From contig NZ_KB905142.1 of the NCBI RefSeq assembly GCF_000378225.1, positions 1 to 64,000 of the forward strand: a DNA stretch of 64,000 bases, written 5' to 3'. The translations under genes were made by a program, and so were the position numbers. Below, piece by piece: positions 13,772-48,629 of the stretch. Each line of letters opens with the position of its first letter. Position 1 is the stretch's first letter. Source of the DNA: Methylophilus methylotrophus DSM 46235 = ATCC 53528. Its GTDB lineage: Bacteria; Pseudomonadota; Gammaproteobacteria; Burkholderiales; Methylophilaceae. Under the pieces are notes generated by a model. The model was not told the DNA's origin. It made no database searches and saw only the letters and a program-made list of their open reading frames with translations.

Positions 13772-13780
13772 TAGTCCGAT
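13772..13780 (+). promoter_or_regulatory. TAGTCCGAT half-site before epsA-like gene
   Basis: The 9-mer TAGTCCGAT is identical to the left arm at 14752 and to a copy at 36453. It lies 99 bases before the regulator's own ATG, as an autoregulatory site would. The palindromic partner is degenerate here. Confidence 0.35.
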
Positions 13781-13811
13781 GTCATGAATTCATCAATGAA
13801 CTGACATGCCG

Positions 13812-13829
13812 CAATCATTTTTCTGTCAC
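13812..13829 (+). promoter_or_regulatory. PHO-box-like direct repeat
   Basis: CAATCAT, a TTTT spacer and CTGTCAC resemble the PhoB box (CTGTCAT-N4-CTGTCAC) at 12 of 14 positions. It lies 49 bases before the ATG of the LuxR-type gene, about the same distance as the similar site before gspG. Confidence 0.35.
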
Positions 13830-13878
13830 AAATCATGCGCAAACTTGCTGCACATTAAATGATAAATGTGTCGTACAC

Positions 13879-14712
13879 ATGGATACCACAATGACAGGGA
13901 TAGATCAGGTCAGCGACCAATGGGCGTTGGCGCTGAATGAAGAGCAGCGTGCAGTATTTATGGAAGTGATTGAAGAATCGTTGCGCTTGCAGCATCGCTC
14001 TCACTTCTTTAACTGGTTACAACGCGGGTTTCAGTGTTTACTTGCTCACGAGGTCGTCGTGATCGGCGTGCGTGGTTTGGAGCGCGCTAGCTACGATTAT
14101 GAATATCTGACCTCCAGCCGCTACTTTGGTGATACCCAGTTTGACCAGGTGCTGAGTGAAGAAGATGGCCTTGTTCATGAAGCCTTCACGCGCTGGAGCC
14201 AACTGGGCATGCCAGTGTTTTATCATACAGACACGTTATCCCAGCAATACAGTCAGTATGCTGTTGAGCATGTAGAGGCAGATCGCATGCTGGCTTCTGA
14301 GCTCAAACGGTTTGTGGTACATGGCTTTGGCAATGAGCATAGCCGCATTGCAACCATGGTGATGTTCGGGCGCTTGAGTTCACCAGCGAATGCCCAAACG
14401 GCTCATCTGTTAGAGCTTTTAATGCCACACCTTCACTGTGCCATTGTGAAAGTGACTGCAAATAAAAGTCCTTCTGTGCTGTCTACGCCTGCGCGCAATG
14501 GTCGTATCAAACCCTTAAGTAAGCGTGAACTTGAAGTGCTGGAATGGCTGCAGGCAGGTAAAACCAATTGGGAAATCGGGGGCATCATGCAGGTCAGCCC
14601 GCTCACCATTAAAAACCATGTGCAGAATATCCTGCGCAAGCTGGATGTAGAAAATCGCAGCCAGGCCGCCAGCAAGGCTTTGAAACTAGGCCTGATTCAT
14701 AGAAGCCAGTAA
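13879..14712 (+). CDS. epsA: LuxR-type transcriptional regulator, EpsA-like
   Basis: A 277-residue regulator with a C-terminal LuxR helix-turn-helix (about residues 212-270: LSKRELEVLEWLQAGKTNWEIG, then SPLTIKNHVQNILRKLDVENR). The N-terminal 200-residue domain lacks a receiver Asp pocket and recognisable acyl-homoserine-lactone motifs. This matches the EpsA regulators described from Methylobacillus exopolysaccharide clusters and found with PEP-CTERM/exosortase systems. It is not beside an eps cluster here but heads the surface island, next to a PEP-CTERM gene. Sites carrying the TAGTC motif lie before it and before several downstream units. The start ATG at 13879 has no strong ribosome site; an ATG at 13891 is an alternative. 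Confidence 0.7.
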   Translation: MDTTMTGIDQVSDQWALALNEEQRAVFMEVIEESLRLQHRSHFFNWLQRGFQCLLAHEVVVIGVRGLERASYDYEYLTSSRYFGDTQFDQVLSEEDGLVHEAFTRWSQLGMPVFYHTDTLSQQYSQYAVEHVEADRMLASELKRFVVHGFGNEHSRIATMVMFGRLSSPANAQTAHLLELLMPHLHCAIVKVTANKSPSVLSTPARNGRIKPLSKRELEVLEWLQAGKTNWEIGGIMQVSPLTIKNHVQNILRKLDVENRSQAASKALKLGLIHRSQ

Positions 14713-14720
14713 ATTTTCAA

Positions 14721-14746
14721 GCATGAAACTCACAAGAATTTCATGC
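14721..14746. repeat. inverted repeat after epsA-like gene
   Basis: GCATGAAA and TTTCATGC form a perfect 8-bp inverted repeat with a 10-nt spacer nine bases after the stop. No T run follows, so it is not a standard terminator; it might be a binding site or an mRNA 3' structure. Confidence 0.4.
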
Positions 14747-14751
14747 AAACA

Positions 14752-14770
14752 TAGTCCGATAGGACTAGTC
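14752..14770 (+). promoter_or_regulatory. TAGTCC-N4-GGACTA palindrome (site 1)
   Basis: A perfect 16-bp palindrome, TAGTCC-gata-GGACTA, at 14752-14767. It overlaps a second palindrome GACTAGTC at 14763-14770. It lies 208-226 bases upstream of the PEP-CTERM gene and 40 bases after the EpsA-like gene. Confidence 0.6.
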
Positions 14771-14846
14771 ATGTTTTAAAGAATGTCATCTCCCCTCCTT
14801 AAACTCTTTCAAGTTTGATCGGCTGGCAAGTGCATTTTGTTTCAGC

Positions 14847-14862
14847 TAGTCCATGTGGACTA
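14847..14862 (+). promoter_or_regulatory. TAGTCC-N4-GGACTA palindrome (site 2)
   Basis: A second perfect copy with the same arms and the same 4-bp gap (atgt), centred 95 bases after site 1, which is nine helical turns. It lies 116 bases before the PEP-CTERM ATG. Confidence 0.6.
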
Positions 14863-14977
14863 ACTGCAAATCACATGTATGACATGCTGGCCTGACAATA
14901 TTCGTGTGTTGTGTTTTAAATCGCCATCTTGATGGTTTGTTCTTTCAGCAGTTTTAAAAATTTTTAAGGAGAAGTTT

Positions 14978-15700
14978 ATGAAATTTCAATATAAAGCTTT
15001 AGTAGCAGCTTTGGCGTTATCTGTGTCTTCATTCGCAGGTGCAGCAACGACAGCTTCAGGTGACGGTAGTTTTTGGTTGACCTTGATTGATCGTGACACC
15101 AGCACTGCAGTGTCTTTTGAAACTGGGTTGACTTACAGTACTTTTAACACCATTGGTCAAGGTGCAGCAGCAAGCTTCACGTTGCCATTTACTTTTGACT
15201 TGTCAGCTGACTCAGCATTTCAAAGCTTTATGTCAACTGCAAGCAGCAATTTGTTTTACGCTTTGTATGCTGGTGATAACCTGGGTACGCAAACCTCAGC
15301 AGGCAGCCGTGGCATGATCATCAGTTATGACTTACGCGAAGATCAGTCAGTTGTCACGATGAGCCGTACGCAATTGGTCACATCTAATTCAGCCATCGAT
15401 CTAGCGCTTGCTAACAACAATATGGCTGATTACTACAGTGCAGACAAAGCTGCTGGCAATGGTGCGACCACAATCAGAGAAGTGGGTGAGGCCATGGGTT
15501 TGATTCAGTACACCAACAGATCAAACAATGCCACCGACAATTATATCTTTGCTGATAACAATAATCCGATCACTGTGAACTTTACACGTGCTGGTGTGCT
15601 GAGTATCAGTGCTGTACCAGAGGCAGAGAGCTATGCCATGTTTATGGCTGGCCTGGGTTTGATGGGTGCTGTGGTTCGCCGTCGTAAGGCCGCCAAATAA
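14978..15700 (+). CDS. PEP-CTERM secreted protein
   Basis: A 240-residue exported protein with a Sec signal peptide (cleavage near residue 23, ...SFAGAA). The C-terminal PEP-CTERM tail (about residues 212-240) has VPEAESYAMF, then a hydrophobic helix (AGLGLMGAVV) and the basic end RRRKAAK. The VPEAE form is a variant of VPEP. Such tails are cut by an exosortase after membrane insertion; no exosortase gene is in the window. The middle domain, rich in Ser/Ala/Thr, is unrecognised. The start has a strong aaggag six bases upstream. Two TAGTC palindromes precede it. Confidence 0.88.
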   Translation: MKFQYKALVAALALSVSSFAGAATTASGDGSFWLTLIDRDTSTAVSFETGLTYSTFNTIGQGAAASFTLPFTFDLSADSAFQSFMSTASSNLFYALYAGDNLGTQTSAGSRGMIISYDLREDQSVVTMSRTQLVTSNSAIDLALANNNMADYYSADKAAGNGATTIREVGEAMGLIQYTNRSNNATDNYIFADNNNPITVNFTRAGVLSISAVPEAESYAMFMAGLGLMGAVVRRRKAAK

Positions 15701-15757
15701 TGCGCGTTGGGGATGCATATCCCCAATGAACATCAACTTATTTTTAAGGGAACGATT

Positions 15758-17254: not shown

Positions 17255-17292
17255 TTGATTTTTTACAGCCTTTACCGAGGTTGTGTGAATAC

Positions 17293-17322
17293 AACGCACC
17301 CCCACAAGGGGTGCGTTTTTTA
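17293..17322 (+). terminator. terminator after secreted protein gene
   Basis: A perfect 10-bp stem (aacgcacccc / ggggtgcgtt) with a 5-nt loop and a T run. Confidence 0.93.
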
Positions 17323-17340
17323 TTGTTTGTCGCGTGTAAC

Positions 17341-17368
17341 GGACTAGTCCGTTTCATGAGCTTGAAAC
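17341..17368 (+). promoter_or_regulatory. GGACTAGTCC palindrome and adjacent inverted repeat
   Basis: GGACTAGTCC at 17341-17350 (extended to AACGGACTAGTCCGTT at 17338-17353) is followed by GTTTCA-N6-TGAAAC at 17351-17368. The site lies about 50-75 bases before the TPS transporter gene and contains the GACTAGTC core found at three other intergenic places. Confidence 0.55.
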
Positions 17369-17416
17369 AAAACTTTAAGAAAATGCAGGCTCTATTGATT
17401 TTCTAACGAGTTTGTT

Positions 17417-19063
17417 TTGCATCTGTCTATCCTGCCCCATTATTGTTTTGCTTTGGCTGCACTGTTGAGTGCAGGCTATGCTTTACCTTCATTGGCCGAA
17501 AATGTTGAGTCTCAAACAGACCATATCAAGACCGCCGCTGCTCCTTCAGCAACGCCAGAGGTTCTCACCTTTGATGTATTTGAATTTCAGGTGGATGGCA
17601 ATTCCGTATTCACCAATGCTGCCATCGAAAAAACAGTCTACCCGTTTATGGGCGAGCAAAAAACGATTGAAGATGTTGAGCAGGCGCGTTCTGCCCTGGA
17701 AAAAGCCTATCAGGATGCGGGCTATTTAACTGTTTCAGTGTCTATACCGCAGCAAGAGGTGAACGCTGGCCTTGTAAAGTTGCTGGTGACTGAGGGGGCT
17801 GTAGAGCGGCTAAAAGTAGTAGATAGCCAATACAACACCCATACTGAAATTAAAGCACGCGCGGGTGAGTTTGCAGAGGGAAAAGTGCCACATTTCCCCA
17901 CAGCGCAAAAAGAGTTAGCGACCTTAAACCGCAATCAAAACCGTCAGGTCAATCCTGTGCTACGCCCAGGTCAGACGCCGGGTAAAGTGGAAGTCGATTT
18001 AAAAGTCCAGGACAAATTGCCATTGCATGGTAATTTGGAGCTGAATGATCGGTATGCACCTAACACCACAAAGTTGCGCTTAAATGCCGGGTTGCGTTAT
18101 GAAAACCTCTGGCAAAAAGATCATAGTTTGGGTGTGAATGTTCAGGTATCACCTGAAGATACCAGCGAGGTGAAAGTATTTTCTGGCACTTATATCATCC
18201 CACGTTTAAATGGCGATTACTTTGCTGCTTATGCCGTCGTTTCTGACAGTAATATTGCTGCTGTGGGTGATATCAATGTCGTGGGTAACGGCTACATTGC
18301 GGGCGCACGTTATATTCACCCCCTACCATTGCTGGAAGGGTATTACCATAGCCTAACCCTTGGCGCTGATTACAAAATATTTAAAGAATCCCTTACCTTG
18401 CAAGGCGCAGATACCAATATCAATACGCCTATTTCCTATTTTGCAACCTCATTAGGCTACGACGCCACTGCACAAAGCAGCTTGGGCCAAACTCAAGCCT
18501 CTTTGGTGCTGAATATGGCCCCTCGGTTACTGGGGAATACCTCAAAAGAGTTTGATGCCAAGCGCGATGGCGCCGGAGCAAACTATATTTTTATACGGAG
18601 TGATGTGAAACAGTTGTATACGCATCCCTCAGGTTGGGCTGTTCAAGGCAAACTGGCCTGGCAGCTTGCCAGTCAACCACTTATCTCCACCGAGCAATTC
18701 ACTGCTGGTGGGCTGGATTCTGTGCGTGGTTATCTTGAGTCTAGTCGATTAGGCGATAGTGGGTTTTCTGGTTCTGTTGAATTACGTACACCCTCTATCA
18801 ATAAATATTTCAAAGAGTACCGCTTTGCAGAGTTCATAAAAGAACTGTATGCGTTTACTTTTATTGACGGTGGTTACGTAAAAATTCGCAATGCTGCAGG
18901 TTTGGAGCCCAGCTATGAGCTCTATTCCGCTGGTTTTGGTGCCAGATTAAAAACGCATTCAGGTGCTTTTGCCTATGTGGATTACGCAAAAGCTTTTAAT
19001 GATGCACCCGAAGTAGACAGCGGCGATTATCGTCTGCACTTCAGGGTAGGTTACGAGTGGTAG
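17417..19063 (+). CDS. two-partner secretion transporter TpsB (ShlB/FhaC family)
   Basis: An outer-membrane beta-barrel that exports the large TpsA protein encoded next. The 548-residue precursor has a signal peptide (...YALPSLAE), two POTRA domains (about residues 45-195; FEFQVDGNSVFTN, QDAGYLTVSVSIPQQ) and a C-terminal 16-strand barrel. The barrel contains GGLDSVRGYLESSRLGDSG, the conserved VRGY motif of loop 6 in this superfamily, and FIDGGYVK. Translation starts with TTG at 17417, the only start that keeps the whole signal peptide; cgag just upstream is a weak ribosome site. Confidence 0.92.
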   Translation: MHLSILPHYCFALAALLSAGYALPSLAENVESQTDHIKTAAAPSATPEVLTFDVFEFQVDGNSVFTNAAIEKTVYPFMGEQKTIEDVEQARSALEKAYQDAGYLTVSVSIPQQEVNAGLVKLLVTEGAVERLKVVDSQYNTHTEIKARAGEFAEGKVPHFPTAQKELATLNRNQNRQVNPVLRPGQTPGKVEVDLKVQDKLPLHGNLELNDRYAPNTTKLRLNAGLRYENLWQKDHSLGVNVQVSPEDTSEVKVFSGTYIIPRLNGDYFAAYAVVSDSNIAAVGDINVVGNGYIAGARYIHPLPLLEGYYHSLTLGADYKIFKESLTLQGADTNINTPISYFATSLGYDATAQSSLGQTQASLVLNMAPRLLGNTSKEFDAKRDGAGANYIFIRSDVKQLYTHPSGWAVQGKLAWQLASQPLISTEQFTAGGLDSVRGYLESSRLGDSGFSGSVELRTPSINKYFKEYRFAEFIKELYAFTFIDGGYVKIRNAAGLEPSYELYSAGFGARLKTHSGAFAYVDYAKAFNDAPEVDSGDYRLHFRVGYEW

Positions 19064-19103
19064 TGTGCGTCAGATTTGAGCGCGTTGAAGTGGGAGAGTG
19101 ACG

Positions 19104-22100
19104 ATGAATAAAGGTATTTATCAGTTAGTGTTTAGTCGTGTGCATCATGCCATGGTGGCTGTTGCAGAAATTGCTTCTTCACGTGCAGGTGATGGAAAAT
19201 CGCGTGCGCGCCGCGCGGCTTCTATTTGGCTGGCTTTATCCTTCTCGCCCCTACCGTGGGCAGTGATGAATGCATTTGCAGAACTGCCCTCCGGGATTGA
19301 GATCCGTGATGCCATCAACGCGCAGGGCGTGATTAATAATGCCACCCAGATTACCAGCTCCAGCGCCAATCACATCAGCTTTCAGCAGCTGGTGCCACAG
19401 GCGATTGTCAACTATAACAAGTTGAATCTTGACCGCGGCCAATCGTTCAACGTCGATATGCAAGCCGGGTGGTCCATGCTGAATCGTGTACACAGTGTCG
19501 ACCCCAGTGTACTCAATGGTAACGTGAATGCGGCAGGAAATATTTATTTTCTCAATGCCAACGGTGTAATCATCGGCAAAGACGCTGTTTTTAACGTCGG
19601 CTCGTTGTATGCGGGCACGCTCAATATTACGGATGAGTTATTCAAATCTGGGTTTGTCAATGAAGCTGGGTATACCAGCGCTTTTCAATTGGTAGATACC
19701 ATCAATTTAACCCCTGAGCAGGCCAACAAAATTAACACTGCTGAAGTGCGGGTAGAGAGTGGTGCGCAAATTAATGCGGCTAAAGGCGGTAAAGTCTTGC
19801 TGTTTGCGCCCAACGTTAATGTTGAGAAAAACGCCATTATTAAAACCCCGGATGGCCAAACCATTTTGGCCGCGGGCAAGACCATTTATCTTAAAAGTAG
19901 CCAGGATCCTGCGGGTATGCTAGTGGAGGTGTCGTCTGGTGGCACAGCCACGAATCTGGGCGAAATTATTGCGGCACGTGGCAATATCACCATGATGGGA
20001 CTGGCGGTGAATCAAGGCGGCAAGCTCTCAGCGTCCACTTCAGTGCGTGCTAATGGCTCGATTCATCTGATTGCACAAGAAGATGTCACCGTGTTGAATG
20101 GTCAAGTCACGCAACGACGTAATGGTTTGATCACGCTCGGCAAGGACAGTGTGACCGAGGTCACCCCAGAGCTGAATGATAAAGAAGAAGTGCTTGCTTC
20201 TTTGCCTTTCAAGACATCCAGCATTAATTTAGAAGCGAGCTTGATCAATATTGATGGTGCCATCAGTGCCAAAGGTGGCAACGTGACGGCCACCACAAAC
20301 GTGAATGCTTCAGCCTTGTTAAATAGCCCAATCGCGCAGCGTATTCATCTTGGTGAAAATGCCAGCATTGATGTTTCGGGTGTGGATGCCCTTGCCCCGA
20401 TGTCACGTAACCAGCTGACTGTACAGCTTAACTCCGACGCGCTTAAAGATAATCCGATTTTACGTGGGTCAGCGTTATTTGGAAAAACCATTTTTGTGGA
20501 TGCGCGTAAAGGCACAGATCTGTTTGATTTGAAGCCTTACATAGACTCCACCCGCTTGGCGACAGTTGCTGAAAAAATGACCAATGCCGGTAAAGTCACG
20601 CTGTCAAATGCGAATGAAATTATTGTTGAAAAAGGCGCCAAGATTGACGTTTCCGGTGGTTCAACCACTTATTCAGCTGGCACCGTAAAGGAGTCCATTC
20701 TTGAGTTTAATGGCCAGTTAGTCGCTATTTCTGAAGCTAAGCCCGGTGTGGCTTATGAACGGGTTGCTGATACGACAACTGTGGTAGACCGTAAATGGGG
20801 CAGTTCAACCACATATAGCCAGGGCAATATCAATAATGCCGTCCCAACATATTTTGAAGGGGCGAATGCCGGTACCGTGAGCTTTGTCTCACCCATTGAG
20901 AATGGCTTTGTACAAAAGTTGGTGGTGGATGGGGATTTAATAGGTAATACCAAAGTCAGTACGCAGCAATTGCTTGCCAATACCGCGCCCAAAGGCGCGA
21001 GCTTAATTGCCAGTGCTCTCAATTTAAACTGGGTGAACAACGCCAATAACTTAGCCTCCAATTTTGCTTTTGGCGATGTGCTGAACGGCGGTGATAGCTT
21101 CATATCAAGTATCGGCACACAATTTCTGCGGCAAGGCTTTAATCGCATTGATTTTTCAAATGTGAAAAACCTCAATGTCAATACTGCCATTCAACTAGAC
21201 GCCAATGGTGCACTGACTTTGGGGCGAGCGGGCGATACCCTGACGCAAATTAATCAAAACATCACTGCACAAGGCGCAAACGTTGCCATGAATGCAAACT
21301 TAACCCGCATTGCCGATAACGTGACGGTGACCACGGCGGGGACGTTTGTCAACGATAGGGCTGGGGTGCAGGGGGCGCTCACGAAAGAAACCGCAGCAAA
21401 TGCCGGTAATATCACCATTGGCCGTTTGGTGACCGGGGGAGGCGTGAAAATAGACGCCAGTGCTGGAGCGTATGTCGATAACGCGGGAGTATTGCATTTA
21501 GGTAAGGCAGGTAATATCAGCTTACAAACCACTGATCAAGGGTTATCGCCAACACTGAATTTGTCAGCATATGGTTTTGACCGTGGTGGCTCACTCAATA
21601 TTCGATTTAGTGAGGGCGAAAAAACTCATCTTTATATCGGGGCAGATAACGCACCAAATGGTCCGCTCGACTTTAGTATTGATAATGTCTTTTTTAGCAA
21701 AGGTGGTTTTTCTAGCTACCGGCTGAGTGCATTTGATATTGATATCGGTGCAGCAGGTCAAACGAATCCCAGCACCATATACGGGGTGGCTCAAAATTTA
21801 ATGATGCGCTCTGGTTTTCAGAGCACTGCAAGTCGTGACAGTATTTTTGATGTGGCAAGGTTAACAACACTGCCCGATGCTACCCGTGCACCTGTTTCAT
21901 TTACCTTTGATACTTATCGAGTCGCTGATGATTTAGGCACGCTCACCTTGCACGAAAAAGCACACATTAAAACCGATATCGGTGGCAGCGTCGCATTGTC
22001 GGCGGGTAAGCAAGTGAATGTATTGGGGGATATTACCGCGCATGGGGGGCAAATTGCGCTGAGTATTGCTGATGACGACACCACTTTGCCTGAAGATGCA

Positions 22101-25100
22101 AGCCAGATGGTGTTTATTGGTGAAAACGCGCAGTTAAATGTCGCCGGTACCACCATCACCATGCCGGATTCTCGTGCGGGAAAACTCAACAACAAAGTGG
22201 TTAATGCCGGCAGTATTACGATTAATACTGACGATAACATCAAAGGCGCTGTGGTTATTAAACAAGGTGCTGTTCTGGATGTCTCTGGAAGCCAAACGCA
22301 AACACATACACGCACCAATCGTGGTTTTGTTTTGGAGACGCTTTACGGTGATGCGGGCAGTATTGATATCTATGGTGTTGGTAGTCTGTTAGTGGATGGC
22401 ACCTTGCGTGGTCAAGCCAATGGTACGGGGCGCGGGGGCAGTTTAGGCTTGTTTTATCAGTCGGTGCCTTTTGATTTTATTGATCCGTATCCCAACCAAA
22501 GTGGTCGCTTCTTAGTTACCAATAATCAACAAGTATTGACTGGTGGTCTGCAAGCGGGTGACGCTCTAAAAGATATTAACTTGCCCGCTAGCTCTAGCCA
22601 AGGTCGCTTGCAAAATGCCCAAATCTCGGCGCAACAGATAGAGGAGGGCGGTTTTGATCATGTCACCCTGGCAAGCTATATTAATGATCCGACCAATCCA
22701 AATAATCGGATTAATTTTGCGTCCGATTTAGATCTAACCATTGCCGGGAACTTAAGACTGAATAGCCCAGTGTTGAGTGTGCTTGATAACGGGCATGCCA
22801 AAATAAACAGTGGGCACTTGCAGTTGTTCAGCCGAACAACAACTATAGATCCAAGTGTATTCTCAAGTAGTAGCGGACAATTGAGTTTAAGTGCCAATCA
22901 AATTTATATTGATGGCTTGGTGGCGGTCACAGGGACAAATAAAACTATCCTGTCTGCGAACAAAGATATCCATGGGCAAGGTGAGAAAACCGCCGTGCTG
23001 TCAAGTACGGTTGCCGACCCTGCTGGCCTTAGCGTCGCAGGCGAATTGCAATTACATGCGCGCCAAATTTATCCGAATTCAGGGGCTAAGCTTAGTTTTG
23101 AAGCGCAGGGGCCAAATAGTCTGATCACAGTTCAATCTAATGGTGTTGCGCCGACTAATGTATTGTCTGGGGGCGGCACGTTATCATTGACGGCAGATCG
23201 TATTGTGCAAGCGGGTGTATTGAAAGCCCCCTTTGGCCAGATTAAATTAAATGCCGCTGATCAAGTCACATTGGCGGCAGGCAGTCTGACATCCGTATCC
23301 GGCAGCGGGCAAAATATCCCATATGGCGAGACGATTTCTTCTGGTCAGACTTTTAACCCCAATGCAGGTGTATCGCAAAAGCCGATTGAAAAAGAAATTG
23401 CGATTTCTGCACCGAACGCAGATTTACAACAGGGTGCCGTCATGGACTTGTCGGGCGGCGGTGAATTATTTGCCTACGAATGGATTAGTGGTGGGGTTGG
23501 TGGCACTCAAGATATTTTGGCGCAATCGAATACCTACGCTTTGATTCCAAGTATGCAAACCGAATTTGCTGCGAATGATCGTTTGTATGAGGGTAGCTCT
23601 GCTGGGGTCGGGACAGGTCAGACCATTTATATCACTGGTGTGAAAGGGATTCCTTCAGGCACTTATACCTTGATGCCTGCCCGATATGCCTTGGTACCCG
23701 GTGCCTTTATTGTGCAGAAAACTGATGTTGCATTGGCGCGCGGCCAAACCGCTAGCTTACAAGATGGCAGTGCTTTAACGTCTGGCTATTTTGCCGATTT
23801 AAACACCGGTGCCAGAGATGCTAACTGGTCTAGCTTTAGGGTCATTGATGGTAGCGTGTTACGCCCTGCTGCAGGCACGGTTTCAAAAGCACCCTCGCAA
23901 TATGTGGTGACCAATGCCAGCAGTTTTTTTGCAAACCCGCTTAAAACCAACGGCGTTGATATTAAAAATACCGATGACGCAGGTAAACTCACTTTGCTGG
24001 CGCAGCAACTGAATCTGGATGCCAGTGTACAAGCGCGTAAAGTCAGCGGTGCTGATGGCTTGGTGGTGGATATTAGTGCCAATGCGATTCGAGTGGTGAA
24101 TCAGCGTGATAACACCGACCCATCCAGCTTGCAGTTAGAGGCCAGCAAACTGAATGCCTTAAATGCGGATAGTATATTGCTGGGTGGCACACGAAATGTC
24201 GCTAATAATGTGACGAATGTCACTACGCAGGCCAGCAGCGTGAGTATTGAAAACGATGCCAGTCATGCTTTGAGTACGCTAGAGTTTTTGGCAACTGCCA
24301 ATAATAATGTCAGCTTGTTAACTGGTGCGGTGATTAATACTGGCAATTCAGCTTCTCAGCCAAAAGCAGTCAATTTGAATACGACGGGTGATGGCGCCTT
24401 CCTCGGTATGTCTTCGCTCAGTCAGTTGGAATATACCCGTACAGGCAGTTCTGTAAATGCGACTTCCGGGGTGTTGGATATTGCAGCTAACACACAACTC
24501 AGTGCTGGCAACTCCCTGGTGATCGATGGTAGTCAAAATGTCAGCTTTGCCGGAAACATTGCACTTGGTGAGAATGCCAATGTGACCTTGGGTTCAAACC
24601 GTATCCTGATTGGTGATGTGCCAGCCAGCCAAAATGGCTTGGTGGTGAGCAACCAGACGCTGGCACAGTTAGGTGATGTTTCTCGTCTAACCCTAAATAG
24701 CTACAGCACGATTGATACTTATGGCAGTGTAGATTTTGGTAACAACCGCCTTAATCTGACAGTGAATGCCGCAGGCATTGCGGGACATTTGGCTGATGGG
24801 GAGACTGCTGCGCCAGCCAACGCAGCGGTGACCATCAATGCTAAATCTTTCGCCCTTAAAAATACTGTAGATGCCAACTATAACTCTCCATCTGACCCGT
24901 CTGGTCGCCGTTTACAGATTAATGCTGAAACGGTCAGGCTGCAGGGCGACCTGTCGGCTGTGCTGGATAGCACTAGCATGGTTGCCAGTGCTGACAGGAA
25001 CACCATCGGTGGGTTTGATAGCGTGTACGTGGATGCTAATACACTCACGGTAGCAGAGCGTGGTGCGTTGGACCTGCAGGTAAATCAGACCACACTGAAT

Positions 25101-28100: not shown

Positions 28101-29114
28101 GAAACGATACGCAGTAATTCGCAACGCTTGGCTGAATACAAAGCGCAAACTGCAGAGTATTTAGTCAGTTTTATGCGACAGTTAACGGGTGATCAGAATC
28201 TGACGTCGGACGAAGCTTATACCCAGTTTAATGCGCAGTCAGATGCGGTTAAAACTGTCTTCGTGAATCGTCACCTGACCACAGAGCTGATCAACTCTGC
28301 AAATGATTTTGCAAAAGCGCGCAATCATGACCGAGGTAATAACGCATTGGCTACCTTGTACCCAACCAAGCAAGCGGGGGATATTTTGTTGTTTAACACC
28401 AAAGTCTCCACTAACAGTGGCGGTAGTATTGATTTGGTCACGCCAGGTGGCCTGATTAACGTGGGTGTACCAGGGCGAGGTGGGGATATCGGTATTATCA
28501 CCGAAAAAGGCGGGGCGATTCGCGGTATCTCAGATGGTGATTTCTCAGTCAATCAATCTAAAGTGATTACCCAGTTTGGCAGTGATATTGCCATTTGGTC
28601 AACAAACGGCACGATTGATGCGGGTAGAGGTTCGAAAACGGCGACCTCTGTGCCAGAACGTATTGTGCAAACCGATGTATTTGGTAACACGGTGGTTGAA
28701 GTGAGAGGTGTCGCTGCAGGCAGTGGTATCCGTGCTCAAACTTATGACCCTGATGGGCCTAATGAAGGTAGGCCTGAAGACGTGCCTAGAGCAGGCAAGG
28801 TAACGCTCACTGCGCCGGTCGTCGATGCTGGCGAGGCAGGGATTGAAGCAGGTGATTTGACGATTGTGGCCCCTGTGGTACTGAATGCGGGCAATATTCA
28901 GGTTCAGGGCGTTTCTAGTGGTGTCCCTGTTGCGGCAACTGCGACCATGGCTGGTGTCACCGCAGGCGTTTCACCTGATGCTGTCAATGCTGCTGCACAA
29001 GCGGTTGCGCAAAATGTGGCCAATGCAGCGGTTAATAACGACATGGCTAAGCCAAAATTACCTTCAATTATTTCTGTAGATGTCATTGGTATCGGGCAAG
29101 AATCGTCCCGCTAA
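19104..29114 (+). CDS. giant filamentous haemagglutinin-like TpsA exoprotein
   Basis: A 3,336-residue surface or secreted adhesin. It begins with an extended signal peptide (ESPR; MNKGIYQLVFSRVHHAMVAV, then a second hydrophobic part near residues 40-60). A TPS domain (about residues 60-270) follows, with LPSGIEIR, the NANGVIIGKDA block and repeated G/N/V beta-helix strands. The long centre is beta-helical. The region near residues 3000-3270 (GGDIGIITEKGGAIRGIS, SDIAIWSTNGTIDAGRGSKT) resembles DUF3739 of haemagglutinin-family proteins. No toxin-like C-terminal domain or VENN motif is seen, so adhesion rather than contact inhibition is likely. The ATG at 19104 has gggagag upstream. Confidence 0.9.
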   Translation: MNKGIYQLVFSRVHHAMVAVAEIASSRAGDGKSRARRAASIWLALSFSPLPWAVMNAFAELPSGIEIRDAINAQGVINNATQITSSSANHISFQQLVPQAIVNYNKLNLDRGQSFNVDMQAGWSMLNRVHSVDPSVLNGNVNAAGNIYFLNANGVIIGKDAVFNVGSLYAGTLNITDELFKSGFVNEAGYTSAFQLVDTINLTPEQANKINTAEVRVESGAQINAAKGGKVLLFAPNVNVEKNAIIKTPDGQTILAAGKTIYLKSSQDPAGMLVEVSSGGTATNLGEIIAARGNITMMGLAVNQGGKLSASTSVRANGSIHLIAQEDVTVLNGQVTQRRNGLITLGKDSVTEVTPELNDKEEVLASLPFKTSSINLEASLINIDGAISAKGGNVTATTNVNASALLNSPIAQRIHLGENASIDVSGVDALAPMSRNQLTVQLNSDALKDNPILRGSALFGKTIFVDARKGTDLFDLKPYIDSTRLATVAEKMTNAGKVTLSNANEIIVEKGAKIDVSGGSTTYSAGTVKESILEFNGQLVAISEAKPGVAYERVADTTTVVDRKWGSSTTYSQGNINNAVPTYFEGANAGTVSFVSPIENGFVQKLVVDGDLIGNTKVSTQQLLANTAPKGASLIASALNLNWVNNANNLASNFAFGDVLNGGDSFISSIGTQFLRQGFNRIDFSNVKNLNVNTAIQLDANGALTLGRAGDTLTQINQNITAQGANVAMNANLTRIADNVTVTTAGTFVNDRAGVQGALTKETAANAGNITIGRLVTGGGVKIDASAGAYVDNAGVLHLGKAGNISLQTTDQGLSPTLNLSAYGFDRGGSLNIRFSEGEKTHLYIGADNAPNGPLDFSIDNVFFSKGGFSSYRLSAFDIDIGAAGQTNPSTIYGVAQNLMMRSGFQSTASRDSIFDVARLTTLPDATRAPVSFTFDTYRVADDLGTLTLHEKAHIKTDIGGSVALSAGKQVNVLGDITAHGGQIALSIADDDTTLPEDASQMVFIGENAQLNVAGTTITMPDSRAGKLNNKVVNAGSITINTDDNIKGAVVIKQGAVLDVSGSQTQTHTRTNRGFVLETLYGDAGSIDIYGVGSLLVDGTLRGQANGTGRGGSLGLFYQSVPFDFIDPYPNQSGRFLVTNNQQVLTGGLQAGDALKDINLPASSSQGRLQNAQISAQQIEEGGFDHVTLASYINDPTNPNNRINFASDLDLTIAGNLRLNSPVLSVLDNGHAKINSGHLQLFSRTTTIDPSVFSSSSGQLSLSANQIYIDGLVAVTGTNKTILSANKDIHGQGEKTAVLSSTVADPAGLSVAGELQLHARQIYPNSGAKLSFEAQGPNSLITVQSNGVAPTNVLSGGGTLSLTADRIVQAGVLKAPFGQIKLNAADQVTLAAGSLTSVSGSGQNIPYGETISSGQTFNPNAGVSQKPIEKEIAISAPNADLQQGAVMDLSGGGELFAYEWISGGVGGTQDILAQSNTYALIPSMQTEFAANDRLYEGSSAGVGTGQTIYITGVKGIPSGTYTLMPARYALVPGAFIVQKTDVALARGQTASLQDGSALTSGYFADLNTGARDANWSSFRVIDGSVLRPAAGTVSKAPSQYVVTNASSFFANPLKTNGVDIKNTDDAGKLTLLAQQLNLDASVQARKVSGADGLVVDISANAIRVVNQRDNTDPSSLQLEASKLNALNADSILLGGTRNVANNVTNVTTQASSVSIENDASHALSTLEFLATANNNVSLLTGAVINTGNSASQPKAVNLNTTGDGAFLGMSSLSQLEYTRTGSSVNATSGVLDIAANTQLSAGNSLVIDGSQNVSFAGNIALGENANVTLGSNRILIGDVPASQNGLVVSNQTLAQLGDVSRLTLNSYSTIDTYGSVDFGNNRLNLTVNAAGIAGHLADGETAAPANAAVTINAKSFALKNTVDANYNSPSDPSGRRLQINAETVRLQGDLSAVLDSTSMVASADRNTIGGFDSVYVDANTLTVAERGALDLQVNQTTLNVGRINTESSANYAVASTGALTSTQKTVSNLPTNSNIGGRLTLQADQLLVNSRIEALAGQVNLQGTSQLELGSQAIVSASSTTKNFANKASDVDAGKVQLNSGGNIIIDQGALVNVGAQGSANAGQVTLSATSGNLQLQGQLNGQAQGSGKGGILAVDVGTMPSLVAIDQQATGFSQSRSYRVRNGDVNIDGTGAQALTAKQVLVSADQGAITVTGTIDASTTKSGSIALYARDDVTLESGSLLRANSSTAGVEGGKVTLATASGALNLNQGSRIEVAGGIGGDGGEVHLRAPRTGGGSGNGVAVNSLDSSISGAQSIVLDAFRIYNNVSTITTGTGTGATLGFTTLANDVNNFMANKDNILASLGMSNDSRFHLRAGQEIRSNNNLTVAADWNLYTTSRAGDEPGILTLRATNNLNVNGSISDGFETAASSAALGTGDSWSYRLISGADTDAANVMETVAATLDADGKSLSGNLILANNELIRTGTGSIDIATGGDLNLATATSVIYTAGEKAADLTGFTDPITSQRPTYLDNGGDIRIDSKGNIFGAEDDSRQAINQWLFRQGGNNQLKDTSWWIRTDQFRQSLAALGGGNVRVNAGRNIANFSVSIPTTARFDNFGTGATGNNVVNGGGDLTVTAQGDIFSGIYFIGQGTGTIKAGGSISAEEGKNYGTVLAMMNGQFDVSAGKDLRIEATVNPTLLPQSITNAPNNDSTIHNSYFSTYGQSAAVRMTSLGGDVNYAANVNTLLDASSGLRSGVNGGLSLNPASLDMTTYVGNVTVGQAYLSPSSLGNLQLLANNDVRIGKLLMSDANPTGIFNINTPTRSTQLLDDLILLSFFNLHASSPLHANSTTPARVVAATGNIRSNDDTEPGLLMLAKESHLVAGQDITRLNIGLQNNRTSDVSVLLAGRDVNTQNVVIGGPGELLVQAGRNIDLIYPLVTSIQATGNTGTSNPVYEFTSAFNANTALPSNGASITMLAGVGDNLRLQNYIDTYIAPGGSGPETIRSNSQRLAEYKAQTAEYLVSFMRQLTGDQNLTSDEAYTQFNAQSDAVKTVFVNRHLTTELINSANDFAKARNHDRGNNALATLYPTKQAGDILLFNTKVSTNSGGSIDLVTPGGLINVGVPGRGGDIGIITEKGGAIRGISDGDFSVNQSKVITQFGSDIAIWSTNGTIDAGRGSKTATSVPERIVQTDVFGNTVVEVRGVAAGSGIRAQTYDPDGPNEGRPEDVPRAGKVTLTAPVVDAGEAGIEAGDLTIVAPVVLNAGNIQVQGVSSGVPVAATATMAGVTAGVSPDAVNAAAQAVAQNVANAAVNNDMAKPKLPSIISVDVIGIGQESSR

Positions 29115-29130
29115 ATATTATGTTTACGAA

Positions 29131-29159
29131 AAAGCCCACCGCATGGTGGGCTTTTTTTT
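29131..29159 (+). terminator. terminator after tpsA-like gene
   Basis: A perfect 10-bp stem (aaagcccacc / ggtgggcttt) with a 4-nt loop (gcat) and eight Ts. Confidence 0.94.
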
Positions 29160-29264
29160 GGTTTTTTTGGGTAGGCAAATGCTTGATACAGGAAGCTATC
29201 TAGAATTTAGGCGGAGCTGTTCGTAGACAGACCAGGCAAGCCATACGCGGCATTCAGGCGATGA

Positions 29265-29274
29265 AGACTAGTCT
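29265..29274 (+). promoter_or_regulatory. AGACTAGTCT palindrome
   Basis: A perfect 10-bp palindrome containing the GACTAGTC core shared with 14763, 17342 and 36450. It lies 164 bases before the nuclease gene. Confidence 0.45.
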
Positions 29275-29332
29275 GACGGCTTAGTGATTGACCTAAAAAA
29301 GTATGAATTGGAGGGGATTACAGCGGATTTTC

Positions 29333-29348
29333 TAGTCCAACCTGACTA
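29333..29348 (+). promoter_or_regulatory. TAGTCC-N4-TGACTA site
   Basis: It has the spacing of the two sites before 14978, with one mismatch (T for G) in the right arm; TAGTC-N6-GACTA is perfect, extended to CTAGTC/GACTAG. It lies about 90 bases before the nuclease ATG. Confidence 0.5.
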
Positions 29349-29437
29349 GTGCGCTGGTGCCAAACTTAATATTGGCGGCAATTCAAATTGCTAAAGTATT
29401 CAGGATTTTAATCGAGCGAAAAACTTCGGAGTCCTGA

Positions 29438-32400
29438 ATGAAATTTAAAAAAATGCATTGGGCACTGGCCTGGTTGGGTCTGTCCTCCTTAAGTATCCCT
29501 GTCTATGCCGAGGTGGTGATTAGCCAGATCTATGGCGGTCAGGGCAGTGTCTATAACCAGGATTACGTTGAGTTATTCAACAACGGTAGCGTGGTGGTGG
29601 ATATCAATGGCTGGTCTGTGCAGTATGCCAGCGCCACGGGTACTGGCAACTTTTCTGCCAACGGTGTGACCACCCTCGCTGGCGTGTTGCAACCTGGCCA
29701 ATATTACCTGGTGGGTTTGCGTAGCACGGCCAACGGTTCAGCTTTGCCTACGCCAGATGCCAGTAATAATGGCACTGACATGAGCGGGACCAACGGCAAG
29801 GTGGTGTTGGTCAAGAGCAGCACTGGCCTCACTTGTAACGGCGGCTCTAATGTGTGTAGCAGCAGCCAGTTGGCGCAGATTGCCGATTTGGTAGGTTATG
29901 GCACGGCCAATTTTGCCGAAGGCTCGACAGCACCGGCAAGTTCAAGCAGCACGGCATTGCTACGTAAGAATAATGGCTGTCAGGATACCAACCAGAACGG
30001 CAGCGACTTTGTGACTGGCGCACCCGCACCACGCAATAGCAGCAGCGCTGTGAATGTCTGCGGTGGAGGCAATACGGGAGGTGGCACAGGGAATCAACCG
30101 ATTGTCACTTCTTGCCCGGCGATAACGCTGCAAGTTGGTGAGGTTGGTGCGGCTCAGGTGCAAGCGTCTGATGCTGACAGTGTGGTCAATGCCGCGACCT
30201 TGGCTTCTAATGCGCCGAGCGGCGTGAGCCTGGTGAATTTTGCTGCGGCCAGCAGTGATGGCCAGTCAGCCAGCGCGACGTTGCAATTGGATGGCAGCCT
30301 GCCTGCAGGGCAGTACACGGCCGATATCCAGTTTGCCAATAATGAAGCGCAGACGGCAACTTGTACCGTCGATATCACGATTAAAAATACCAATATCACG
30401 CGCATTTACGAGATTCAGGGCAGCGAATTGGGGATTGCGTCTGTGAGCCCGCTTAATGGCCAAACCGTCACGACAGAAGGCGTGGTCACTGCAGTTTTCC
30501 CTGGTCTGAATGGCTTTTACCTTCAAGATGCCACCGGTGATGGCAATCCACAAACCTCAGATGGCGTATTTGTGTATCTAGGCTCAGGCGTGACACCTAC
30601 CGTGAGCAAAGGGCAAAAAATCCGCCTGACGGCCAATGTGACTGAGTTCAATACCATCACCGAACTGGTCAATATCAGCGGCTTGCAGGTGATTGGCAGT
30701 GGCAACATTCTGCCAACAGACATAACCTTGCCAGAAGTGACAGAAGGTGACCTGGAAGCCTATGAAGGGATGCTGGTGCGTATCACCGCGCCGATGACCG
30801 CATCACAAAATTACTTCCAGGGACGTTATGGCCAGGTGACCTTGTCTGCCGAAGGCCGCATGATCAAACCCAGCAATATTTATCCAGCCAACTCGACCGC
30901 CGCGGCACAGTTAGCCGATGAAAATGCGCGTCGACGCCTGGTGCTGGACGACGGTAGCAGTGCACAAAACCCCAACCCGATTCCGTTTATTGGCGAAGAC
31001 AATACCTTGCGTGCCGGCGATGTAGTGGAAAACCTGACCGGCGTGATCGACCACGGCTTGATTACAGCCTCAGGCACAGGCCCACGTGATTACAAACTGC
31101 ACCCGACCGAGCCGGTACAGTTTAGCCGTGTCAATTTGCGGACAGCGGCACCCGCCAGCGTGGCAGGTAACCTTAAAATCGCCAGCTTTAACGTACTCAA
31201 CTACTTCACGACCTTTACCAATGGTGCCACTGCCAGCGGCCAGACCGGTCAAGGCTGCCGTTTGGGTAATAGCGTGTCAGCCTCTAACTGCCGAGGTGCC
31301 AATAACCTGGTGGAATTTAACCGCCAGCGTAACAAGATTATCCGTGCCTTGACTGCCATGAATGCTGACGTGGTTGGCTTGATGGAGATTCAGAATAATG
31401 GACTCACTGCGGCACAAAATCTGGTCGATGGTTTGAACGCGGTATTGGGCGCCAACACGTATGCCGTGATCGCTGACCCAGTGTCAGGGACTGGCACAGA
31501 TGCCATTAAAGTGGCCATGATCTACAAACCGGCCAAACTGACACCAACTGCTGGGGCATTGTCCGATAACGACAGTATCAACAACCGTCCAACACTGGCA
31601 CAAACCTTCCGTGCAGCCAATGGCGAGAAGTTCTCTGTCTTGGTCAACCATTTTAAATCCAAGAGCTGCTCGGATGCTGCAGGTGCTAACCAGGATCAAG
31701 GTGGTGGTCAGGGTTGCTACAACCCGCAACGTATCGCCCAGGCCAGCCGCTTGCTGCAATTTATCAATACGGTGCAAGCGCAGTCTGGTGATAGCGATGT
31801 GATGGTGATTGGTGACTTGAATGCTTACGGCAAGGAAGATCCCATCCTGACCCTGGCGGCAGCTGGTTTGCAAGACCAGATTGCCCGCTTTAATGGCGAC
31901 AGCGATTACTCCTACGTGTTTGATGGCGAATCTGGTTATCTGGACCATGCCTTGGCCAGCAACAGCATGGCCGCGCAAATAACAGGCACATCGCACTGGC
32001 ATATTAACGCCGACGAGCCGTTTGTGATTGATTACAACACCGAGTTCAAACCGCAAGACCTCTATACCGATAGCCCTTACCGTTCTTCTGACCATGACCC
32101 GGTCATTGTCGGGGTGCAGTTGGTAAAAACGGTCAACGGCAGTGCTCAACGCGACACCCTGGTCGGCACCGCTGGTGATGACGTGCTGACAGGTGGTCTG
32201 GGGGCAGACACCCTCAGCGGCCTGACTGGACGTGACACCTTTGTTTACCAGAGTATGCGCGATGCCGCGGACACCATTACCGACTTCACGCCGGGAGAGG
32301 ATCAACTGGACATCACCGAGTTGCTGCAGAGCATAGGCTACAACGGTAGCCAGCCTTTTGCCGATGGTTTTGCGCGCTGGGTGACCGTATCAGACGGTGT

Positions 32401-32515
32401 GCAATTGCAAATTGATACGGATGGCACTGGTGGCCCGGCAACAGCCAAAGCCCTGGTGACTTTGAAGGGATTAGCCATGAACCAACTGGATGCACAACGT
32501 GATGTGCGCTGGTAA
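29438..32515 (+). CDS. extracellular endonuclease, ExeM/NucH-like, with type I secretion-like tail
   Basis: A 1,025-residue secreted DNase. In order: signal peptide (...SIPVYAE); lamin-tail domain (about residues 25-205; VISQIYGGQGSVYNQDYVELFNNG); a Cys-containing linker and an OB-fold-like part (about 330-570); an endonuclease/exonuclease/phosphatase domain (about 578-890; KIASFNVLNYF, VGLMEIQNN, VIGDLNAYGKEDP, SSDHDPV) with Glu, Asp and His active-site residues present. The last 120 residues are an RTX-like tail (GTAGDDVLTGGLGADTLSG, then DTITDFTPGEDQL) of the VC_A0849 type I secretion class. A Sec signal together with such a tail is odd. The product would cut extracellular DNA. First gene of a four-gene group. 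Confidence 0.9.
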   Translation: MKFKKMHWALAWLGLSSLSIPVYAEVVISQIYGGQGSVYNQDYVELFNNGSVVVDINGWSVQYASATGTGNFSANGVTTLAGVLQPGQYYLVGLRSTANGSALPTPDASNNGTDMSGTNGKVVLVKSSTGLTCNGGSNVCSSSQLAQIADLVGYGTANFAEGSTAPASSSSTALLRKNNGCQDTNQNGSDFVTGAPAPRNSSSAVNVCGGGNTGGGTGNQPIVTSCPAITLQVGEVGAAQVQASDADSVVNAATLASNAPSGVSLVNFAAASSDGQSASATLQLDGSLPAGQYTADIQFANNEAQTATCTVDITIKNTNITRIYEIQGSELGIASVSPLNGQTVTTEGVVTAVFPGLNGFYLQDATGDGNPQTSDGVFVYLGSGVTPTVSKGQKIRLTANVTEFNTITELVNISGLQVIGSGNILPTDITLPEVTEGDLEAYEGMLVRITAPMTASQNYFQGRYGQVTLSAEGRMIKPSNIYPANSTAAAQLADENARRRLVLDDGSSAQNPNPIPFIGEDNTLRAGDVVENLTGVIDHGLITASGTGPRDYKLHPTEPVQFSRVNLRTAAPASVAGNLKIASFNVLNYFTTFTNGATASGQTGQGCRLGNSVSASNCRGANNLVEFNRQRNKIIRALTAMNADVVGLMEIQNNGLTAAQNLVDGLNAVLGANTYAVIADPVSGTGTDAIKVAMIYKPAKLTPTAGALSDNDSINNRPTLAQTFRAANGEKFSVLVNHFKSKSCSDAAGANQDQGGGQGCYNPQRIAQASRLLQFINTVQAQSGDSDVMVIGDLNAYGKEDPILTLAAAGLQDQIARFNGDSDYSYVFDGESGYLDHALASNSMAAQITGTSHWHINADEPFVIDYNTEFKPQDLYTDSPYRSSDHDPVIVGVQLVKTVNGSAQRDTLVGTAGDDVLTGGLGADTLSGLTGRDTFVYQSMRDAADTITDFTPGEDQLDITELLQSIGYNGSQPFADGFARWVTVSDGVQLQIDTDGTGGPATAKALVTLKGLAMNQLDAQRDVRW

Positions 32516-32572
32516 TCAACCATAACAAATCAGTAAGTTGTTTTTTAAAAACCGAGTGAGAGGATATTTAAG

Positions 32573-33331: not shown

Positions 33332-33378
33332 TCATCAATGAGTGCCGTGATGCATCACGGCACTGTGTGGAGAATGCA

Positions 33379-35670: not shown

Positions 35671-35692
35671 TGTTTACTAAAGGAATTTTGCA

Positions 35693-36205
35693 ATGAACAC
35701 ATTCATGAAAAAAATCACGTTGGCTGCCTTGTTGACAGTCGTCATCCCAGCCCAGGCAGCTATTCAATCCTGGCAGTTTAATGGTCAAGTTGAATCCGGT
35801 TACTACAACGGTACCAGCTATCAGGGTCAGTTCAGCCTTGATGATGCCGGTCTGTTGGCATCGGGCACTGAACTGATCAATCTGAGCAGCCTGAACTTCA
35901 CTTTTGGTGGCAACCTGTTCAACCTGGCAACGCCTGCTCTGGCCGATGCCACTGCCGTATTCCAGGATGGCGTTTTTACTGGCCTGGAGTGGTCCGTAGA
36001 TTCCAACAGTCCGGCGATCGGGTTTAGCTTTATTGCAGGTGGCAGCGATACTTCGGATGCGTACTTTACCTATGACACGACTCTGGGGTTCTCTGGTACT
36101 GGTAGTCTGGCCTATGCCGCGGCTGTACCAGAACCGACACAAACCGGCCTGATGCTCATAGGCTTGGGTCTGTTTGGCTGGATTGCGGCACGTCGCCAAT
36201 CCTGA
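35693..36205 (+). CDS. PEP-CTERM secreted protein, small
   Basis: A 170-residue exported protein with signal peptide (...VIPAQAA), a beta-rich centre (WQFNGQVESGYYNGTSYQG, then SLNFTFGGNLFNL) common in PEP-CTERM proteins, and the tail VPEPTQTGLMLIGLGLFGWIAARRQS-like with the canonical VPEP. It starts 22 bases after the 5'-nucleotidase gene with aaagga upstream, and ends the four-gene group ahead of a terminator. Confidence 0.87.
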   Translation: MNTFMKKITLAALLTVVIPAQAAIQSWQFNGQVESGYYNGTSYQGQFSLDDAGLLASGTELINLSSLNFTFGGNLFNLATPALADATAVFQDGVFTGLEWSVDSNSPAIGFSFIAGGSDTSDAYFTYDTTLGFSGTGSLAYAAAVPEPTQTGLMLIGLGLFGWIAARRQS

Positions 36206-36241
36206 TTATTTCTGCATCAACGCGTTTGCAATGAACGCAGC

Positions 36242-36263
36242 AGCCCGGTTCGCCGGGCTTTTT
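36242..36263 (+). terminator. terminator of nuclease/nucleotidase operon
   Basis: A 7-bp GC stem (agcccgg / ccgggct) closed by a ttcg tetraloop and followed by a T run. Confidence 0.92.
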
Positions 36264-36276
36264 TATTGGGATACCT

Positions 36277-36403
36277 GGAATAAGTGGCTATGCGGGCAAA
36301 TTGCTGCGTTGCGCGGTACTCGCAACCTCGCTGTACACTGCGTACTATCTCGGTTTCTGCGTTCCGTGCGCCTTGCACTTCATCCCGCTCGCTCACTTAT
36401 TCC
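36277..36403. repeat. MITE-like or interspersed hairpin element
   Basis: A 127-bp GC-rich stretch is bounded by perfect 10-bp inverted repeats, GGAATAAGTG and CACTTATTCC. The arms continue with imperfect complementarity (gcggg near the left end, cccgc near the right), so the whole can fold into a long imperfect hairpin. No coding potential is convincing. It is the only copy in the window. It lies between a terminator and the ExbB operon promoter region. Confidence 0.5.
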
Positions 36404-36443
36404 GGCTATCCATTGTTTAAAAAAATCTGGCACTGAACAGATA

Positions 36444-36461
36444 TAGTCCGACTAGTCCGAT
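36444..36461 (+). promoter_or_regulatory. tandem TAGTCCGA sites
   Basis: TAGTCCGAC overlaps TAGTCCGAT, two direct copies nine bases apart, with GACTAGTC palindrome at 36450-36457. It lies 64-81 bases before the ExbB-fusion gene. Confidence 0.5.
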
Positions 36462-48531: not shown

Positions 48532-48629
48532 GATGAGGTGACCAAATACTTCCAAATTGCTTCTGCACGCGAATATGAGGGTCATGTACAGACATGCGCA
48601 CTATAGACCACATTCATTGCCATTGCCCC

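Follow-up and report, generated by a model that had tools for sequence, protein, structure and literature searches.

The closest described control of PEP-CTERM genes, which encode the cargo of exosortase, is a cis-element that acts with sigma54 and PrsK/PrsR; its published motif 1 has TTTACA at its end and lies before a -24/-12 site, and the same work expects further PEP-CTERM regulators and motifs to be discovered (Haft 2006, PMC1569441). The pepA gene of Aquincola is RpoN-dependent (PMC9850573), and for a response regulator of Desulfovibrio, DNA-affinity-purified chip (DAP-chip; PMC3333781) has confirmed the PEP-CTERM targets that had been predicted. The operator of ComA from Bacillus subtilis, a GerE-type activator that binds as a dimer, consists of inverted TTGCGG hexamers with a 4-nt spacer, and a more degenerate repeat lies downstream (PMC4797271). 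Here we describe a comparable inverted repeat, TAGTCC-N4-GGACTA (hereafter the box), and the adjacent gene for the LuxR/GerE-type regulator EpsA in the first 64,000 nucleotides of contig NZ_KB905142.1 of Methylophilus methylotrophus DSM 46235 = ATCC 53528 (hereafter the window; the genome is denoted G000). The EpsA family profile, TIGR03020, presumably takes its name from EpsA of the methanolan cluster of Methylobacillus sp. 12S. Among the matches listed in searches of open-licence literature, no operator for that EpsA and, by title and start of abstract, no TAGTCC/GGACTA operator was found; a full-text search of the same literature found nothing joining EpsA with PEP-CTERM, exosortase and LuxR.

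The repeats are probably operators from which EpsA activates promoters, and the box is probably the DNA switch by which EpsA turns on genes for exported surface proteins, because among relatives in its family it occurs almost exclusively in genomes that carry EpsA. The sites, their conservation, their bias towards intergenic positions and certain targets, their co-occurrence with EpsA and their phasing with -10-like hexamers are computed results; from them we infer EpsA as the binder, activation, the positions of transcription starts and the existence of a signal.

The box in the window and in related genomes

The perfect box occurs in 19 of the 60 genomes of the window's family and EpsA (TIGR03020 over cut-off) in 31. 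It is present in 18 of the 31 EpsA-positive genomes vs one of the 29 EpsA-negative ones (G005; Fisher 3e-6), whereas a reversed control pattern is split evenly (15/31 and 14/29). Counted by genus, the box is present in 10 genera, each of which belongs to the 15 with EpsA (24 genera in total, P 0.0015). Across the order (200 genomes, with EpsA called at E<=1e-40 in 37 genomes, 34 of them over the cut-off), the motif is found in 12 of 37 genomes with EpsA vs 10 of 163 without it (P 5e-5), and outside the window's family the corresponding fractions are 9/33 and 10/161 (P 0.001). A scan of the non-coding parts of the epsA flanks (about 1.5 kb) evaluated all 4096 hexamers as half-sites at gaps of 2-6; it covered 23 family loci from 14 genera besides the window genus, leaving out same-genus near-duplicates such as L148, L149, L152, L169 and L174, as well as 26 loci from other families (L196-L221). 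In the 14 family genera, TAGTCC at gap 4 ranks first (8 genera; the next hexamer reaches 4, the mean is 0.06), and none of the other gaps from 2 to 6 makes this hexamer conspicuous; in 8 of the 14, epsA has a box with no more than one mismatch within about 1.5 kb. Outside the family, G219 repeats the order of the window, with epsA followed by a perfect box and then by a PEP-CTERM-like gene that stays below the curated cut-offs; according to a simple ORF caller, the box falls inside an ORF (open reading frame) of at least 80 aa.

In the window, the perfect box is found twice, at 14752..14767 (box A, TAGTCC-GATA-GGACTA) and 14847..14862 (box B, TAGTCC-ATGT-GGACTA), and once with a single mismatch, at 29333..29348 (TAGTCC-AACC-TGACTA); there is no other match with fewer than two mismatches in the window. 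The palindrome GACTAGTC is present in five copies, at 14763 (14763-14770, overlapping box A), 17342, 29266, 36450 and 47575, and TAGTCCGAT is read directly at 13772, 14752 and 36453. The coordinates given for these three sequences in a sequence-only reading of the window all proved right, and the sites named there are indeed intergenic; the fifth GACTAGTC, at 47575, which that reading missed, is coding and lies in the minus-strand ORF 47140-48585. Its estimate that an 8-bp palindrome is expected about once per 64 kb was too high, given that shuffled windows contain 0.29 copies of GACTAGTC on average and none of 100 shuffles reaches five. The hexamers TAGTCC and GGACTA number 16 in the window, of which 10 are outside ORFs of at least 100 aa, all at the named sites, and six are coding. 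When up to three mismatches are allowed, the inverted repeat shows no excess in the window (11 observed, 12.0 expected), which counts against any looser claim, so that it is the strict form that carries the signal.

The whole genome (2.86 Mb) contains GACTAGTC 11 times, with five of the copies within the 64-kb window (binomial P 2e-6 for a window chosen post hoc), and the seven places besides the four intergenic sites all overlap ORFs of at least 80 aa. When one mismatch is allowed, the inverted repeat is found six times, three of them in the window; two of the others overlap ORFs and the third (C1:1103419) is intergenic. The latter, G000:C1:1103419-1103434 (L014), is a one-mismatch box, TAGCCCAATCGGACTA, outside the 23-kb island formed by the sites in the window.

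A protein search with EpsA yielded 14 loci in named genomes, 12 of the Methylophilus type (L037-L048) and two in Methylotenera metagenome-assembled genomes (L049 and L050). In the 12 Methylophilus-type loci, two boxes separated by 79-108 bp lie between epsA and the gene that follows it, which a pattern match classes as PEP-CTERM-like; both boxes have at most one mismatch in 11 of these loci, and the second box of L042 has two. L049 and L050 each have one perfect box, 370 and 356 bp before a PEP-CTERM-like gene, respectively, with another gene between the box and epsA. In an alignment of 13 spacers (that of the window and the 12), pairwise identity is 95% in the half-site columns, 46% in the N4 and 52% in the rest. 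The conservation extends to the other sites: GACTAGTC is found at the place matching the 17342 site in 10 of the 14 loci; a TAGTC half-site lies upstream of exeM in all three relatives that have this gene among the four searched (G048 is without exeM); a GACTA half-site, to be compared with the 29265 palindrome, is found there also in G019, G036 and G057; and at least one half-site precedes the ExbB-like gene in four of four relatives. In G053, epsA has one-mismatch boxes on both sides, upstream of it and in the stretch that separates it from the PEP-CTERM gene. Thus, conservation at orthologous promoters, on which the sequence-only reading had staked its regulon, is present in the two-box spacers, in their half-site footprint, at the place of the 17342 site and in the regions upstream of exeM and the ExbB-like gene.

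Predicted target genes and promoter layout

The 60 family genomes contain 60 perfect sites, each of which was inspected: 59 are intergenic (with respect to ORFs of at least 100 aa) and 53 lie within 450 bp of the start of a gene facing them, so that an even spread through coding DNA is not seen. A PEP-CTERM-like gene is faced by 41 of these sites according to a permissive pattern that also matches 10 of 166 background genes; among the 41, at least two appear spurious (L105:1934 and L113:3001). Ten products were compared with NCBIfam, namely eight proposed by a script and two exchanged by hand for proposals that looked wrong (the PEP-CTERM-like gene beside another L105 box, and the one on the opposite side of the L116 box), which is not a blind sample; each of the ten has a PEP-CTERM family match at E<=0.01, and a curated cut-off is passed by seven, with L099, L110 and L121 as the exceptions. 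The fraction of PEP-CTERM genes, identified with hidden Markov models, that have a box with at most one mismatch upstream is 6/9 in G026, 4/6 in G004, 8/39 in G053, 2/12 in G048 and 1/15 in the window genome, vs 0.01-0.11 box/PEP-CTERM pairs expected in each; this count used 81 of 90 PEP-CTERM matches, the nine with E >0.08, six of them from G000, being dropped. The window genome has 21 PEP-CTERM matches at E<=1 and 15 at E<=0.08, and the 1/15 refers to 500 bp upstream. Accordingly, in the window genome the regulon is a local 23-kb island of four or five transcription units and not a genome-wide PEP-CTERM regulon. The comparative tests support the idea of a regulon, one that is smaller in the window genome and wider among its relatives. 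Other genes found behind boxes encode a family-4 glycosyltransferase, a GGDEF-EAL protein, a TolC-like protein and an HD-domain protein. Boxes also stand before VPLPA-CTERM-like genes in two genomes of another family, G161, where the match passes the cut-off, and G200, where it does not; the G161 box lies inside an ORF according to the ORF caller.

A symmetrised matrix built from 96 dereplicated sites gives TAGTCC-RWWY-GGACTA; no position outside the box exceeds 0.36 bit. After downstream sequences at least 80% alike over 45 nt were collapsed to 93, -10-like hexamers are found 32-33 nt after the box in 31 cases, 22-23 nt after it in 15 and 43-44 nt after it in eight (4 + 4). The top single offset, 32, collects 24 hexamers in the 93 sequences, vs at most nine in 200 rotations; without the window genus (63 sequences) the top offset collects 11, vs at most nine in rotations. 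The power at the helical period (9.5-11 bp) is reached by none of 500 rotations in each set, including that outside the window genus. Matches to the -35 hexamer 16-18 nt before the -10-like hexamers average 2.87 of 6 against a background of 2.56, and in the 32-33 class they are at background level. Assuming that the hexamer spans -12 to -7, the centre of the box would lie near -43, -53 or -64. Position -43 is the usual place of LuxR-type class II activators and -64 suits class I, -53 being less usual.

These features are compatible with a mechanism in which an EpsA dimer would bind the two inverted hexamers of the box (consensus TAGTCC-RWWY-GGACTA), whose centre would be about 43, 53 or 64 bp before the presumed transcription start. 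From this position, the dimer would recruit RNA polymerase to promoters with a -10 hexamer, most of which have no consensus -35. Since consensus -35 hexamers are mostly missing, EpsA is read as an activator, which would be of the class I/II type. In the window, EpsA would act on the adjacent PEP-CTERM gene, a two-partner secretion pair, an extracellular-nuclease operon and an ExbB-like operon; in relatives, its targets would be mostly PEP-CTERM genes, together with a glycosyltransferase gene and genes for cyclic di-GMP (c-di-GMP) enzymes.

The nearest predicted target, the PEP-CTERM gene 14978..15700 (plus strand; PF07589, 30.6 bits, cut-off 20.7), is preceded by both perfect boxes. Box A is followed after 16 nt by the element TGTCAT (14784..14789, plus) and after 32 nt by the -10-like hexamer TAAACT (14800..14805, plus), and box B after 17 nt by TGACAT (14880..14885, plus). 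This companion recurs elsewhere: TGTCA or TGACA is matched at offsets 16-17 after the box in 25 of 103 downstream sequences and at most four times at other offsets, in Methylophilus (including L037-L048) and some relatives. A role of TGTCAT as a -35 hexamer was rejected, as it lies only 10 nt before the -10-like hexamer after box A. Boxes before PEP-CTERM genes of G026 come in pairs with a spacing of exactly 33 bp, or about three helical turns (L101, L102, L106 and L107). Because this spacing nearly equals that from the outer half-site to TGTCA/TGACA in Methylophilus, the element may, as a speculation, be a relic half-site.

Upstream of epsA, a single TAGTCC (13772..13777, plus, within TAGTCCGAT) is a candidate autoregulatory half-site, and TAGTCCG or TAATCCG half-sites are also found upstream of epsA in some orthologues (e.g., L038 and L044). 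The same region contains TGTCAT, TGACAT and TGTCAC repeats at 13780-13840, which recur in orthologues and may be sites of another regulator.

The two-partner secretion pair is preceded by everted half-sites, CGGACTAGTCCG, read directly at 17340..17351, and consists of a TpsB/ShlB-type outer-membrane transporter (17417..19063, plus; POTRA_2 and ShlB matches) and a 3338-aa ORF (19098..29114, plus), the presumed TpsA exoprotein from its position. Before exeM, the palindrome AGACTAGTCT is read directly at 29265..29274, followed by the one-mismatch box and, 43 nt after the latter, the -10-like hexamer TAAAGT (29392..29397, plus). The gene itself (29438..32515, plus) encodes an ExeM/NucH-type extracellular nuclease with an RTX end (NF033681, 631 bits, cut-off 300), and PEP-CTERM and 5'-nucleotidase-like genes come after it. 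The tandem half-sites TAGTCCGAC-TAGTCCGAT, read directly at 36444..36461, precede the ExbB/TolQ-like gene (36525..38201, plus; tolQ 133 bits, below the cut-off of 221), which is followed by an ExbD/TolR-like gene. The ExbB/TolQ-like protein (36525-38201) is 558 aa long, and its TolQ match covers only residues 351-550, leaving a long N-terminal extension.

EpsA and the alternatives to it

The regulator encoded by epsA (13879..14712, plus) matches TIGR03020 with 209.5 bits over residues 19-268, above the curated cut-off of 170, with a GerE domain at 212-266; its association with the PEP-CTERM system is seen in the PEP-CTERM gene that adjoins it and in the PEP-CTERM matches of the genome counted above. 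A structure model built from 14 sequences has a predicted local distance difference test score (pLDDT) of 78.5 and a predicted template-modelling score (pTM) of 0.63. The best Foldseek matches of this model are CviR (E 9e-13), QscR, SdiA, LasR, RhlR and TraR, with template-modelling scores of only about 0.35-0.45 at full length and 0.55-0.67, normalised by target length, for the ligand domain alone. Thus, EpsA as modelled carries the autoinducer-binding-domain fold of quorum-sensing LuxR receptors. By recognition helix, EpsA proteins fall into two classes, SPLTVKNHVQNILRKL-like (as in the window) and S.FTVKNHLQRIFKKL-like, which have the core TVKNH in common. In G040 and G051, both without a box, the helix has TVKSH, too few cases to count as evidence.

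Several observations weigh against EpsA as the one protein acting at all these sites, or against the promoter model. The perfect motif is missing from 13 of the 31 EpsA-positive family genomes. Five of the genomes without it (G011, G017, G035, G036 and G047) have a one-mismatch site near epsA; in G001, G020, G029, G040, G049, G050 and G051 (G006 is not in this list), no site was found in the available epsA flanks, and a search of 11 loci from genera without the perfect box for a shared variant beside epsA gave nothing convincing. At the order level, 10 of the 22 motif genomes are without an EpsA match, and in the half-site scan of 16 genera from other families TAGTCC reaches only two, tied for first. 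Two or more EpsA-family genes over the cut-off are present in 15 of the 31 EpsA-positive family genomes, so that the binder is not pinned to one of them. The geometry of two inverted hexamers with a 4-nt spacer is that of the sites at 14752, 14847 and, with one mismatch, 29333, and the everted (17342) and tandem (36444) forms deviate from it. As for the promoters, the phasing was tested on the data in which it was first noticed; the window-genus set has a single peak, at offset 32, and says little on periodicity; the best period in the sets beyond this genus is 11.0-11.25; and the 22-23 class has a fair -35, with 3 to 5 of 6 matches (mostly 3-4) in 14 of 15 cases. Finally, G005 has three perfect boxes before PEP-CTERM-like genes and no EpsA over the cut-off, which may reflect a lost regulator, an assembly gap or another binder. 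The G005 boxes are located at C59:461121, 461276 and 694556 (L099 and L100).

The last of these possibilities leads to the alternative that survives best, namely that the boxes are operators of another regulator that co-occurs with EpsA, e.g., the response-regulator-like ORF 46154-46786 or the second EpsA paralogue (G000:C1:682297). Operator geometries are shared among GerE-type proteins (e.g., ComA, PMC4797271), the EpsA model finds 11 matches in the window genome, the majority of them confined to the GerE part, and G026 has an EpsA with a helix of the other class (ISPFTVKNHLQRIFKKL), yet carries 17 boxes; the boxes of G005 point in the same direction. The proximity of boxes to epsA-type genes in 8 of the 14 other family genera argues against such a regulator, and for the paralogue in particular the surrounding 19 kb contain no box with 0-1 mismatches. 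On balance we consider this explanation unlikely. The ORF 46154-46786 begins like a receiver and matches GerE only weakly (19.8 bits with the EpsA model), and it adjoins the same-strand ORF 47140-48585 that holds the fifth GACTAGTC. The paralogue (G000:C1:682297-683016; L028 and L146) scores 206 bits and has a different recognition helix.

Control of the boxes by the known PrsK/PrsR-sigma54 system, for which the identical class of target genes would speak (Haft 2006, PMC1569441), is very improbable and is largely refuted by the rarity of PrsR (TIGR02915), which is over the cut-off in two of the 60 family genomes and, among the 19 motif genomes, only in G021; the best score in the window genome is 412.5 bits vs a cut-off of 502.6. 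Moreover, as far as its description in the source goes, motif 1 with its TTTACA end and -24/-12 site is unlike boxes phased with -10-like hexamers. Action of the repeats in RNA, where the sequence could form a hairpin with a 6-bp stem and a 4-nt loop, is hardly credible and was rejected, because in the sense of the downstream gene most single-mismatch sites break the pairing (15 of 19, with four kept by G-U; nine further sites without a single downstream gene were set aside). The clustering of copies in one island of the window genome could suggest a small mobile or REP-like element, or chance, an idea to which we give almost no weight and which was rejected because the likeness among copies stops at the box edge, with the N4 and flanks near background, and the matching positions are kept among relatives.

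Relation to known regulatory systems

EpsA as the probable binder thus comes with a candidate operator, with sites located in 19 genomes from a single family, and with a promoter model that predicts positions. With these, the control of exosortase cargo in methylotrophs becomes directly testable, and the EpsA regulon could be annotated from sequence. It is possible, although we regard it as rather doubtful, that EpsA is a solo LuxR-type receptor with a quorum-sensing fold and that the box (TAGTCC-RWWY-GGACTA at about -43, -53 or -64) represents an old, order-wide control of exosortase cargo of the sigma70 type, parallel to PrsK/PrsR-sigma54, by which surface-protein sorting would answer a diffusible or metabolic ligand.

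The window protein resembles EpsA of Methylobacillus sp. 12S in that it passes the TIGR03020 cut-off. In its modelled two-domain fold it resembles CviR, QscR, SdiA and TraR. The operators of these receptors differ in sequence from the EpsA box. The 6-4-6 geometry of the box equals that of the ComA operator (PMC4797271); however, the hexamer is another one, and ComA is a Gram-positive response regulator, whereas the N-terminal domain of EpsA is similar to that of quorum-sensing receptors. With the PrsK/PrsR-sigma54 system (Haft 2006, PMC1569441), the box shares its position in regulatory DNA before PEP-CTERM genes, but the motif and the promoter type are different and PrsR is below the cut-off in 18 of the 19 motif genomes of the family, so that the box is best read as part of a PEP-CTERM regulatory code separate from PrsK/PrsR-sigma54.

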